The position numbers and the translations under genes are program-made. The notes beneath the pieces were generated by a model. The model was not told the origin of the DNA. It ran no database searches and saw only the letters and a program-made list of their open reading frames with translations. A stretch of DNA of 64,000 nt from Candidatus Peribacteria bacterium (GTDB taxonomy: Bacteria; Patescibacteriota; Gracilibacteria; Peribacterales; Peribacteraceae): positions 144,436 through 208,435 of the forward strand of contig CP082927.1 of NCBI GenBank assembly GCA_023038255.1, in the 5' to 3' direction. Of this stretch, positions 41,768 through 51,598 are shown one piece after another (within the stretch, counting starts at the first letter, position 1; each line of letters starts with the position of its first letter).

Positions 41768-44700
41768 ATGGCTGCAAAAAAGCCCGCTAAAAAAGCTGCA
41801 AAGCCTGCGAAGAAAGTGGTAAAGAAGGTCGCTGCGAAGCCTGTAAAGAAGGCTCCGGCCAAGAAAGCCGCTCCGAAGAAGGTTGCGAAGCCTGCAAAGA
41901 AAGCTGCCCCAAAGGCCGCTCCTAAAAAGGTCATCAAAGCCGCTCCGGTCAAAAAGCCAGAACCTGCTCCGAAAAAGGAGGCGCCGAAGGCTGCTGCTCC
42001 GGAAAAGAAGGTTGCTGTGGTTGCCAAAGTTGCCGCTCCTGCAAAGAAGCAGCAGGATATTCTGAAAAAGCCTGCTGGCGCGAAAGCTGTATACCAGATG
42101 GATGTCGAACAGAGCATTCTGCCGCAGATTATCCCGCACCTTCAGCCACCTTTGGATAAGGTTCCGGATTCCATCAAGGATCTTCCGGCTGATATTGCTG
42201 CGAAAAAAGTGATTGAAGGCCGCGTGTTCATTGTGGATGACCAGGGCGTCTCGCACGTGCCGTCCCTCATTGAAATGCAGCTCGAAAGCTACAAGTGGTT
42301 CCTCACAGAGGGTCTCAAAGAACTCCTCCAGGAAATCACCCCGATTACAGACTTCTCCGGCAAGAAGATGGAACTGAGAATCCTCGGCCACACCTTCGAT
42401 GCGCCGAAGTACGATCCGGAAACCTGCAGCCGCAGAAACCTCAGCTACGAGGCGGCTATGAAGGGTCACGTTCAGCTTATCAACAAAGAGACCGGTGAAA
42501 TCAAAGAGCAGGATGTGTTCCTCGGTTCCATTCCTCTCATGACGAACAATGGTACCTTCATCATCGGAGGTATCGAACGTGTCGTTGTGCACCAGCTCGT
42601 CCGTTCGCCGGGTGTGTTCTTCTCTACCATGCCGGATTATCCAAAGTTCCACGCCGCAAAGATCATCCCGAAGCGCGGTGTGTGGCTCGAAATTGAAACG
42701 GATCGCCGCGGTGTCATCACCTGCAAAATCGATCGCAAGCGCAAGATTCCCATCACGCAGCTCCTCCGCGTGTTTGGCTACACAACAGAATCCCAGATGA
42801 TGGATCTCTTCAGTGACCTCGTCTCCGAAGAGCACGATTTCATTCTGAAGACTCTCGAAAAGGACACTGCTTCCACGCTCGAAGACGCCTACCAGAGCAT
42901 CTACCGCCGCATTCGCCCGGGCGACTACGCCACGCCGGAAAACGCAAAGCAGCTCATTGACGGTCTCTTCTTCGACTTCAAGAAGTACGACATGGGAACG
43001 ATCGCCCGCTACAAACTCAACCGCCGCTTCGGTGTCGAAACACCGAGCGATGAGCAGCACCGCGTATTCCAGGTGAAAGACTTTATCGAAATTCTCCGCG
43101 AACTCATCCGCCTGAATAACGGTATCGGTACACCGGATGATATCGACCACCTCTCTAACCGCCGCGTCCGTTCCGTTGGTGAACTTGTGCAGAACAAGTA
43201 CCGCGTGGGACTCGTGCGCACCGAGCGTATTGTGAAAGATCGTATGACTGTCATGGATCTTGAAACCGTGACACCGACACAGCTTATCAACTGCCGTCCG
43301 GTCACTGCTGCGATGCGCGAATTCTTCGCCAGCTCCCAGCTGTCCCAGTTCATGGACCAGACAAACCCGCTCTCCGAACTTGCTCACAAGCGTCGCCTCT
43401 CCGCGATGGGTCCGGGTGGACTCTCCCGCGAGCGCGCATCCTTCGACGTCCGCGACGTGCACACCAGCCACTACGGCCGTATCTGTCCGATTGCGACTCC
43501 GGAAGGACCGAACATCGGACTTGTCGTTCACTTGGCAGGTTTCGCCCGCGTGAACCCGTACGGATTTTTGGAGACACCGTACAGAGAAGTGTTGCATGAC
43601 GTTGCACTCGATGCAGACGCCATGCTTGGACGCATTATCGACGAAACGGTGAAGGACGGCCGCAAGGTCATCATCAAAGAAGGCGATACCATTGATTCCA
43701 AAGAGACAGCACGCCAGATTATTTCTCTCCTCAAAAAAGAGAAGCGCGACACCGTGCACGTCCGTGCATTCGCAACCGGAAAGGTGATCTTCATGGATGC
43801 GGAACAGGAGCGCAGACTCATCATCTCCCAGGCTCAGGAAACAGGAACACTCAGCGAATTCGGTGAGTTTATGGAGCCCCGCGTGTCCGCACGCAAGGGT
43901 GGAGAAGCGACACTGTCCGATGTCCGCGATGTCACACACATCGACGTGTCCCCGAAGCAGATTCTCTCGATCTCAACCTCTCTCATTCCGTTCCTCGAGC
44001 ACGATGACAACACACGTGCATCCATGGGAACGAACATGCAACGTCAGGCTGTGCCGCTCGTGAAGCCGCATGCACCGCTCGTCGGTACAGGTCTCGAAGG
44101 ACTCGCTGCGCGCGCGTCCGGACATGCGTTGCTTGCAGAGGAAGACGGAGAAGTAACCTACGTCGACGCCGACCAGATCAGCATTGTGTACAAGACCGGT
44201 CGCAAAGAGACGTACAAGATGAAGACATTCCTCCGCTCAAACCAGGGAACATGTTTCCACATGCGCCCGCTCGTGGCTCATGGACAGAAGATTCACAAGG
44301 GCCAGACACTTGCAGACGGTTCTGCAGTGGAAGGCGGTGAACTCGCCCTCGGACAGAACCTGCTTGTGGCGTATATGTCCTGGCAGGGATACAACTTCGA
44401 AGATGCCATCATCATTTCTGATCGCATTGTGGAGCAGGGCTACTTCGATTCCATTCACATTGAGAGCTACATTACAGACGTGCGTGAAACCAAGCTGGGT
44501 CCTGAGACAGTGACCCGCGACATCCCGAACGTTGGTGAAGGAAAGCTCAAGGACCTCGACGTCGACGGTATTGTCCGCATTGGTGCAACCGTTCACGAAG
44601 GAGACATCCTTGTCGGTAAAATCACACCGAAGGGTGAGACGGAACTGACACCGGAAGAGCGCCTCCTGCAGGCAATCTTCGGCGACAAGGCGAAGGACGT

Positions 44701-45811
44701 GAAAGACTCTTCCCTCCGCCTCCCGGGTGGAGCAGGAGGAAAGGTGGTCGACGTGCATATCTTTGACCGCGCACTCGGAGACGAGCTCCCGACAGGTGTG
44801 ATGAAGCAGATCGAAATCTTCGTTGCCCAGACCCGCAAGACACAGGTCGGAGACAAGATGGCCGGTCGCCACGGTAACAAGGGTGTCATCTCCCGCATTG
44901 TGCCGAAGGAAGACATGCCGTTCATGGAAGACGGAACACCGGTCGACATTATCCTGAACCCGCTCGGTGTGACATCCCGTATGAACATCGGACAGATTCT
45001 CGAAACTCACCTTGGTTGGGCCTGTCAGATCCTCGGTATCAAGATCGCAACGCCTGCGCTCGACGGTATCTCCCCGGATCAGATCACCGGATTCCTGAAG
45101 GCAGCCGGTCTGCCGGAAGGAGGAAAGGTGCAGCTCACGGACGGTCGCACGGGCGAGCACTTCGCACACAAGACCACCGTCGGAATGGTGTACATGTTGA
45201 AACTGCTCCACCTCGTTGAAGATAAAATTCACGCCCGCTCAGTCGGTCCGTACTCTCTCGTCACACAGCAGCCTCTCGGAGGAAAGGCGCAGCACGGAGG
45301 ACAGCGCTTCGGAGAAATGGAAGTGTGGGCACTCGAAGCATACGGTGCCGCCTATACGCTCCAGGAAATGCTCACCATCAAGTCCGATGACGTGATCGGA
45401 CGCAGCAAGGCCTACGAGGCTATTGTGAAGGGTGAGACGATCCAGCGCCCGAGCATCCCTGAATCCTTCAACGTTCTTGTGAAAGAACTCCAGGCTCTCG
45501 GACTCAAGGTCGAACTCCTGAAGTTCAAGGACGAAGTGGTACCGGAAGAGCGCGCTATCCTTAGCCCTGATGAAATTGAAACCGTCGAACTCGCATCCCG
45601 CGTGGACAGCGAAGATCTCGAAGATGCTCTGCCGGTCGGTGACAAGATTGCTGAACTGAGCGAGGAGATCGCAATGGCGGAAGGCGAATCTGAAGACGAA
45701 GTGATTGCAGCTGTCGAAGGAGGAGAGATCGGCGATGACGGTGCAGTCGGCGTCACACAGAAGGATGAAATGGAAGAGGCAGTCAGTGAAGAGTCGATGA
45801 ACGACGCGTAA
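41768..45811 (+). CDS. rpoB: RNA polymerase beta subunit with histone-H1-like N-terminal extension
   Basis: 1347 residues. From about residue 115 it is a normal beta subunit: [15 protein letters not shown], the RNFDVRD-like region [33 protein letters not shown] around the rifampicin pocket, [28 protein letters not shown] and the C-terminal [18 protein letters not shown]. Residues 1-95 are instead an Ala/Lys/Pro-rich tail (repeats such as [11 protein letters not shown] and KAAPKKV) like histone H1 or mycobacterial HupB tails, without aromatic residues. The C-terminus adds about 60 acidic residues. rpoC is not downstream: a terminator follows, then ssb. rplJ and rplL are not upstream either. 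Confidence 0.96.
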   Translation: [1347 protein letters not shown]

Positions 45812-45868: not shown

Positions 45869-45983
45869 CGTGTAGGCGTAGATAAAAATAAGACTCTGGA
45901 CTTCAGGGGTCATCAATTGTCTTATTCGCTGATGGGCGTTGTGCTTTTACGCTGAAAGCATTCATTTCCTTCCAATTATTTCT

Positions 45984-46343
45984 ATGTTCAATGTGAACAG
46001 AATCACGCTTCTCGGGAACGTCACCCGCGACCCCGAAGCAAAGACGGCAAAGACGGGTACATCTATTACCAGCATCGGTCTGGCGACCAATCGTCCTGTG
46101 AAAGACGAGCGGGGGAACACTGTGCAGGAGGCAGAGTTTCATAACCTCGTCTGCTTCGGTTCCCTTGCGGATTTTTCCGGCAAGGCGGTGAAGAAGGGGT
46201 CACCTCTCTATGTCGAGGGACGCATTCATACGTCGCGGTATCAGACGAAGGATGGGAAAGATGCCAGTAAGACCGAAGTGGTTGTCGAGAAGCTCGTGCT
46301 GCTTTCTTCCAAGAAAGGGGAGATTGCGGCGGAGGGCGCGTGA
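45984..46343 (+). CDS. ssb: Single-stranded DNA-binding protein, short paralogue 1
   Basis: 119 residues, one OB fold: NVNRITLLGNVTRDPEAK, ITSIGLATNRPV, EFHNLVCFGSLADF, GSPLYVEGRIHTSRY. It binds single-stranded DNA in replication or repair. The usual acidic C-terminal tip that recruits partners is missing: it ends KKGEIAAEGA. That suggests an accessory role or a need for the paralogue at 46825. ATG 45984 is chosen because it starts the OB fold. Confidence 0.9.
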   Translation: MFNVNRITLLGNVTRDPEAKTAKTGTSITSIGLATNRPVKDERGNTVQEAEFHNLVCFGSLADFSGKAVKKGSPLYVEGRIHTSRYQTKDGKDASKTEVVVEKLVLLSSKKGEIAAEGA

Positions 46344-46824: not shown

Positions 46825-47277
46825 ATGAAGTCAGTGAACAAAGTAATCCTCCTCGGAAACGTGACGCGCGATCCGGAACTGAAGGCCACAGCGAACGGAC
46901 AATCGGTGGCGACTTTTGGGTTGGCGACGAACAGAGTGTGGAAGGATCACACAGGGGAGAAGCAATCACTCGCGGAATATCATAACCTTGTGGCGTGGGG
47001 TGGGCTTGCTGATTTCTGTGCGCAGAATATCCGGAAGGGGAAACCGCTCTACATAGAGGGGTATTTAAAGACGCGCAGCTGGGATGGACCGGAGGCGTCT
47101 AAAATCTTCCGCACAGAGATTGTGGTGGAGAATCTCGTGCTGCTTGGCCCGCGTGATGGAATGGAAAATGGTATGCATCAGGATTCCCCGGTGATGGACA
47201 TGCATCAGGAGCATCCGGTGGAGGCAATGCCGTCTGCGCCGCAGACTATTATGGAAGGGGATATCCAGCCGATGTAG
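46825..47277 (+). CDS. ssb: Single-stranded DNA-binding protein, paralogue 2
   Basis: 150 residues with an OB fold (SVNKVILLGNVTRDPELK, VATFGLATNRVWKD, AEYHNLVAWGGLADF, GKPLYIEGYLKTRSW) and a His/Met-rich linker ending in EGDIQPM, which resembles the DDDIPF tip of bacterial SSB in a weakened form. It is therefore the better candidate for the main replication SSB. It is separated from paralogue 1 by a 480-bp cluster of dispersed repeats. Confidence 0.92.
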   Translation: MKSVNKVILLGNVTRDPELKATANGQSVATFGLATNRVWKDHTGEKQSLAEYHNLVAWGGLADFCAQNIRKGKPLYIEGYLKTRSWDGPEASKIFRTEIVVENLVLLGPRDGMENGMHQDSPVMDMHQEHPVEAMPSAPQTIMEGDIQPM

Positions 47278-47510: not shown

Positions 47511-47538
47511 TTGACCCTCCTTGTTTTCCCTATAGAAT
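47511..47538 (+). promoter_or_regulatory. Promoter of the 23S-5S operon
   Basis: TTGACC (47511-47516), 16-bp spacer, TAGAAT (47533-47538). It lies about 350 bp before the 23S gene, in the right orientation. Confidence 0.6.
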
Positions 47539-47544
47539 CTCCCT

Positions 47545-47770
47545 ACTCTATGTTGCTTCGCGACCACCCGTAGGATCAGCTGTGAACTAAGTATCTGATT
47601 CTGCGGGTGTGCGTGAGCCACCCGCTTTTTGTTTCTGCCTAGCAGGAACAGCCCCGAAGCTTCCCGTAGGGTTTGCACCCTCCCCGAAGATTCCAGGCAG
47701 CGGACGCTTTCCTCACCTCGCCCATTGGAAGCATCGGCTGACATGCATCGAACCTCTTCTCAGGTTCGAT
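47545..47770 (+). ncRNA. Structured leader with competing hairpins (attenuator-like) before 23S
   Basis: ACCCGTAGGATCAG (47566-47579) pairs over 14 positions (two G-U) with 47595-47608. The 3' arm overlaps GCGGGTG (47603-47609), which pairs with CACCCGC (47619-47625) followed by five T. The two structures exclude each other, as in transcription attenuators. Further on, CTGCCT/AGGCAG (47635-47640, 47695-47700) encloses AGGGT/ACCCT, and ATCGAACCT/AGGTTCGAT (47747-47770) ends the region. It may be a leader or a separate small RNA; a minus-strand RNA is not excluded. Confidence 0.45.
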
Positions 47771-47892
47771 ACATACTGTAAAGATTAATTATAAATTCAA
47801 TTTTCAATTTTAAATTAAGATGATTCATTACCCTGTTCCGTGAACGTCGTGGGCATATTCTGCCCTCTGCGTGGCACGTGAACAGTACAAAG

Positions 47893-51402
<3,510 letters not shown>

Positions 51403-51598
51403 AATTCTGTATTGTATCTGAGGAATTCCGCAAGGAAGACCGATGATGCACACACTGAATAGTGTACTGTTCATGTGTCATAGCCAGCGGGCAGAACATG
51501 CTCATGGCAGGGACACTGAATCATTCTTTACAGTCTCTGCGTGTCAGTCGATGAGTTTCCGGGTTATGCCGGTCATTCACATCAACGTCTCCGATAGT

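Follow-up and report, generated by a model that had tools for sequence, protein, structure and literature searches.

How rRNA synthesis is matched to the need for ribosomes has been debated for decades, with ppGpp, NTPs and "ribosome feedback" under discussion. In the trpL leader of E. coli, a ribosome that has reached the stop of the leader covers segment 2, which allows the 3:4 terminator to form. The bmrB-bmrCD attenuator of B. subtilis has a 53-codon leader and controls a drug transporter; undisturbed translation of the leader ORF favours the terminator and disturbed translation the antiterminator, so that general translation is sensed and not one amino acid (PMC4191407). In ermC-type leader peptides, a short leader ORF likewise senses the state of the ribosome, and the step controlled is translation of the mRNA for a 23S methylase (PMC4191407). 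Transcription of the E. coli rrn leaders is controlled by antitermination at boxB-boxA-boxC with NusB and S10, where a protein complex acts at boxA and there is neither a translated ORF nor a competing terminator (PMC10250234). Helices between leader and trailer are normal for rRNA (PMC10250234).

The 23S rRNA leader in the window

The window, which is the whole 64,000-nucleotide stretch of DNA that was analysed, is part of a 1.24-Mb single-contig genome of a Candidatus Peribacteria bacterium, a member of a group of very small, uncultured bacteria. The single 16S gene of this genome lies at C1:1200676-1202141, apart from the 23S, so the 23S is unlinked and has a promoter of its own. The features of the 23S unit are as follows.

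47511..47516, + strand, -35 box of the 23S promoter, TTGACC; from sequence, hexamers in 63/63 family members
47533..47538, + strand, -10 box, TAGAAT, after a 16-nt spacer; from sequence, hexamers in family members
47545, + strand, predicted transcription start; a purine 7 nt past the -10 box in 56/63 members
47550..47573, + strand, near-leaderless mini reading frame ATG...TAG, MLLRDHP*; from stop placement, with the ATG position constant in members
47565..47579, + strand, segment A, 5' arm of the antiterminator, CACCCGTAGGATCAG; covariation with B
47595..47609, + strand, segment B, the shared arm, CTGATTCTGCGGGTG; three-way covariation
47619..47625, + strand, segment C, 3' arm of the terminator, CACCCGC; covariation with B
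47626..47630, + strand, U-tract of the intrinsic terminator (TTTTT); from sequence, T-rich tract also in relatives
47732..47747, + strand, leader strand of a pre-23S leader-trailer helix; pairs with 51538-51553, 16 bp
47871..47889, + strand, leader strand of a pre-23S leader-trailer helix, including the family-conserved GTGAACAG; pairs with 51463-51481, 19 bp
47893..51403, + strand, 23S rRNA gene, the gene predicted to be regulated; Rfam RF02541
51604-51718, 5S; Rfam

The two hexamers form a sigma70-type promoter (TTGACC-16-TAGAAT, 47511-47538). Downstream of it, the last 7 nt of B are able to pair with either A or C. The 14-bp pairing of 47566-47579 with 47595-47608 is exact, and one further pair (47565-47609) extends A:B to 15 bp. 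The terminator stem, 47603-47609/47619-47625, is also exact and carries a GNRA-type loop, followed by U5. The fold of the 231-nt region beats 200/200 dinucleotide shuffles (z -4.8). Two mutually exclusive hairpins had been placed here by the first-pass annotation; they are confirmed at these positions and are strongly conserved. That annotation had also described a nested structured domain extending to 47770. Part of this region does fold locally, but the domain overlaps the leader strand at 47732-47747, which pairs with the trailer.

Several neighbouring features were observed. A group I intron lies within the 23S gene at 50074-50336 (Rfam RF00028). Upstream, an rpoB-like gene (41768-45811) is separated from the 23S unit by two adjacent ORFs (45939-46343 and 46825-47277), which by eye resemble single-stranded-DNA-binding proteins.

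Conservation and covariation of the paired segments

The core was first found ahead of the 23S in relatives by blastn, and a covariance model was built from 19 sequences. Of the 74 Peribacteraceae genomes, 62 have a match to the model, including 53 of the 57 of good quality; the other 12 have none, which may reflect an assembly gap or loss. Close relatives of the leader element are in genomes named Candidatus Peribacteria or Peregrinibacteria (Peribacteraceae). There is one sense-strand copy per genome, except for G006, which has two on different contigs; these copies (L007 and L068) differ from each other and contamination is listed as 5%, so two organisms may be present. Model matches on the minus strand are the inverted repeat read from the opposite side. 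At every locus that reaches a 23S gene, this gene lies downstream of the element on the same strand.

Another family of the class, f9, has a diverged form that the covariance model also detects, and a broader model finds the element in 10 of 18 f9 genomes (E below 0.004). In the f9 form the promoter lies ~90 nt upstream of its ATG, and near-leaderless initiation would therefore be limited to the Peribacteraceae form. Four model matches (L116 and L118-L120) were dropped because the architecture was absent. Outside the class, three weak matches (L173-L175) had no 23S in the retrieved stretch and were taken as chance. Similar competing hairpins with a GGGGUG core are seen in a third family, f7 (L187 and L188, the former ahead of a 23S). 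They have no AUG, and a CTG at the matching place, a possible start, opens a frame ending before B; both loci were left out of the counts. In the 16S leaders examined, no element of the same type was found before 16S.

Over the 69 homologous leaders, a mean of 13.9 of the 15 A:B pairs and 6.9 of the 7 B:C pairs are formed. Covariation was scored on 52 distinct ungapped rows, many of them related, in which C, and in part A, had been located by pairing to B. The f9 rows provide an independent check, as the pairing-located A begins exactly 6 nt ahead of the ORF stop in 6/6. For A:B, both-sided changes occur in 9 of 15 pairs (76 cells, against a shuffled mean of 21.7), and the covariation score is 0.396, compared with 0.195 for shuffled and at most 0.111 for slid controls. 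For B:C, both-sided changes occur in 4 pairs (25 cells, against 4.9 shuffled), and the stem is paired in 99.6% of cells over the 52 sequences.

All seven B bases are pairable both ways in 47 of the 52 rows, and at three positions the A/B/C triple changes as a unit. The first position goes from U/C-G-C (UGC/CGC) to UAU in 12 sequences, the second from GCG to UAU in 6 and the fourth from CGC to UAU in 6. This three-way covariation would be hard to explain without alternative pairing and indicates a mutually exclusive antiterminator that shares one arm with the terminator. Both stems are thus conserved in relatives, covarying far above the shuffled and slid controls, in the alignment check that the first-pass annotation had proposed. 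These comparisons strongly support its central claim, that a switch resembling an attenuator lies between the promoter and the 23S gene.

A strong terminator hairpin with a U-tract could also be a plain terminator that insulates the 23S against transcription entering from upstream, or could mark where a small RNA ends, with A:B as a secondary feature. The terminated leader RNA would measure ~85 nt. However, the promoter precedes the terminator and the 23S is the next gene, A:B covaries in 9 pairs with B covarying with A and C jointly, and the geometry of the ORF would not be required. We regard this explanation as very unlikely. The stand-alone small RNA suggested earlier does not hold as the main product; the terminated leader would be a by-product.

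A classical rrn antitermination site, with a boxB-like hairpin and then a degenerate boxA loaded with NusB/S10, would account for the U-rich stretch after a GNRA-type hairpin. NusB is mostly present, and boxA-like motifs occur in the 23S leaders of other families. In the aligned cores, inspected by eye, there is only a U-tract and no boxA consensus 3' of the hairpin, whereas the 16S leader of the same genome has the boxA-like CGCTCTTTGAG. Such a site predicts neither the competing A arm nor the ORF, and it is improbable to a similarly high degree.

Among the 16S leaders, a 23-nt motif, TTCACAGCATCGTGTAGTAGAGA (at most 4 differences), was observed 86-225 nt before 16S in 12/12 genomes examined, namely in the genome's own 16S leader (L121, ~760-782) and in L150-L160. 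It is a candidate for a role in processing or antitermination.

The leader reading frame and the predicted switch

The leader reading frame begins at a nearly constant place. Its ATG lies 10-13 nt past the -10 box in 62 of the 63 family members (11 nt in 49) and 8 nt past it in the remaining member; given the predicted start, the 5' UTR ahead of the AUG would be ~5 nt. The frame is 7-25 codons long and enters segment A, and the UAG stop of the window ORF falls inside A. The front edge of a terminating ribosome was placed 13 nt downstream of the first stop-codon base, a footprint size borrowed from E. coli. By this measure, the frame-0 stop lies past the start of A with the ribosome edge short of B in 69/69 leaders from 41 genera, with an overlap of one nt with B in a single leader. 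The same placement is found in only 4 and 13 of the 69 leaders for frames +1 and +2. The stop codons are UAG in 49 leaders, UGA in 11 and UAA in 9.

A stop within A is common to 40 leaders, and RNA pairing could account for that stop. Since the codons in the arm are then set by RNA pairing, conservation of the peptide is no independent proof of translation. The other 29 leaders (17 genera), which lack the UAG of the arm, all stop before B; the corresponding counts for the two alternative frames are 3/29 and 7/29. Shuffling of the A-B loop alone in this subset gives a product of ~9e-8 over the 17 genera, treated as independent, and the position of the stop, which ranges from 30 to 78 nt past the ATG, follows that of B (rho 0.91 across genera). 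In some genera the ORF is 3 nt longer with the frame preserved. In genera g11, g18 and g23 it passes A in another frame and still stops before B. In g18 the stop lies 61 nt beyond the first base of A, where a terminating ribosome could hinder A:B only from between A and B.

Codons 2-5 of the leader ORF are variable and without repeats, and no run of codons for one regulating amino acid, of the trp or his type, was found in it. As the codons are not conserved, translation itself, and not one amino acid, would be the signal. An ATG at the matching place is present in 0 of the 11 family 16S leaders with a recognised promoter; the promoters and first bases of the 16S leaders resemble those of the 23S leaders. 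Sequence comparison shows the switch itself, its location ahead of the 23S, the ORF and where that ORF stops.

The 3' end of the 16S (L121, ~2440-2466) reads CATCTCCTTA, where E. coli has CACCTCCTTA. A Shine-Dalgarno-like motif was seen at 10 of the 43 gene calls in the window, for which both the calls and the start positions are crude. Together, these observations suggest that starts independent of a Shine-Dalgarno sequence may be common.

Folding of the free leader RNA gives the A:B antiterminator in 68/69 leaders. When everything up to the ribosome edge is masked, so that A is covered, the B:C terminator folds in 69/69. For the window, the predicted energies are -24.3 kcal/mol for the A:B hairpin and -16.3 kcal/mol for the terminator, and with A masked the terminator folds once C is made. 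The comparison of free and masked folding suggests that antitermination is the default and that translation leads to termination. Stop placement and masked folding together show that the ORF is placed for a ribosome to decide between the hairpins. In addition, the bases just 5' of A may pair with the terminator loop and so lengthen the antiterminator. Support for this pairing is moderate, as 23/5000 permutations were as good, or 224/5000 with one sequence per genus.

We infer from this arrangement that the ORF is translated, and likewise the direction of control and its physiological role. RNA polymerase would start ~5 nt ahead of the AUG, and the leader RNA would be translated nearly leaderless. 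A ribosome reading the 7-codon ORF would sit on A as B emerges; B, denied A, would pair with C, and transcription would halt at the U-tract ahead of the 23S. On a leader without a ribosome, when ribosomes or initiation are scarce or inhibited, A:B would form in place of the terminator and the 23S would be transcribed. Ribosome availability would then be the signal, giving negative feedback on 23S synthesis. We put the probability that the 23S rRNA gene is subject to ribosome-mediated transcription attenuation, without a ligand, at roughly three in four. We also lean, if only slightly, towards a wider reading, in which the 23S of Peribacteria would be under direct feedback in cis: initiation on the mini-ORF would read free ribosomes, terminate the 23S and set the supply of 50S independently of the unlinked 16S.

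A gene preceded by two exclusive hairpins is also reminiscent of the expression-platform terminators of riboswitches, in which a metabolite would bind the leader and shift A:B versus B:C. The leader has no conserved unpaired domain that could serve as an aptamer, as the A-B loop ranges from 11 to 74 nt and is variable in sequence, and a search of Rfam at a permissive threshold gave only chance matches for the leader element. The ligand sensing considered in the first-pass annotation is therefore unsupported. The conserved sensor would be the mini reading frame, which had been overlooked, and a riboswitch is hardly credible.

An attenuator switched by a protein that attaches to the antiterminator or to the terminator hairpin, such as a ribosomal protein or a Nus factor, would leave the ORF incidental. 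The terminator loop, (U)GC-GNRA-GC, is better conserved than a plain terminator requires, and NusB is encoded in 14 of 15 genomes. The loop conservation is partly explained by the pairing with the bases just before A, and a protein switch would leave unexplained why the ATG is invariant, why the stop is correctly placed in every leader and why it tracks B. Mimicry of a binding site in 23S or 16S was rejected, since the element matches either rRNA no better than shuffles do. Control by a protein is thus unlikely, and a ribosome on the leader ORF is the preferred switch.

Loss of stringent control was also considered as a reason for the element and was rejected, because RelA/SpoT domains are found in 15/15 genomes. 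With RelA/SpoT kept and NusB mostly kept, the element would add to the usual controls and not replace them.

Comparison with known attenuators

No report of an rRNA gene preceded by a leader ORF was found in the open-access literature, which was the scope of the search, subscription papers lying outside it. The type of mechanism is already known, and its use on an rRNA gene appears to be new. If the proposal is correct, a ribosome that translates seven codons stops the synthesis of its own 23S, which is a very simple feedback loop, and leader-ORF attenuation extends to rRNA genes. The proposal would also illustrate how 50S output can be regulated when the 16S and 23S genes are unlinked. The element is short and would act in cis, and it can be tested ahead of a reporter in a laboratory strain.

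The 23S leader shares with E. coli rrn antitermination an action on transcription of an rRNA leader, as well as the leader-trailer helix; it differs in the translated ORF and the competing terminator, and in E. coli the proteins at boxA take their place (PMC10250234). With the ermC-type leader peptides it would have in common a short ORF that senses the ribosome, although the step controlled there is translation and not transcription of the 23S (PMC4191407). Segments A, B and C correspond to segments 2, 3 and 4 of trpL. There is neither a segment 1 nor a run of regulatory codons, so an untranslated 23S leader should read through and not terminate. By analogy, the 23S leader would work most like the bmrB attenuator, as both would respond to general translation, with undisturbed translation of the leader ORF favouring the terminator (PMC4191407). 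In contrast to bmrB, it has an rRNA target, an ORF of 7-25 codons that begins ~5 nt into the predicted transcript, and no anti-antiterminator.
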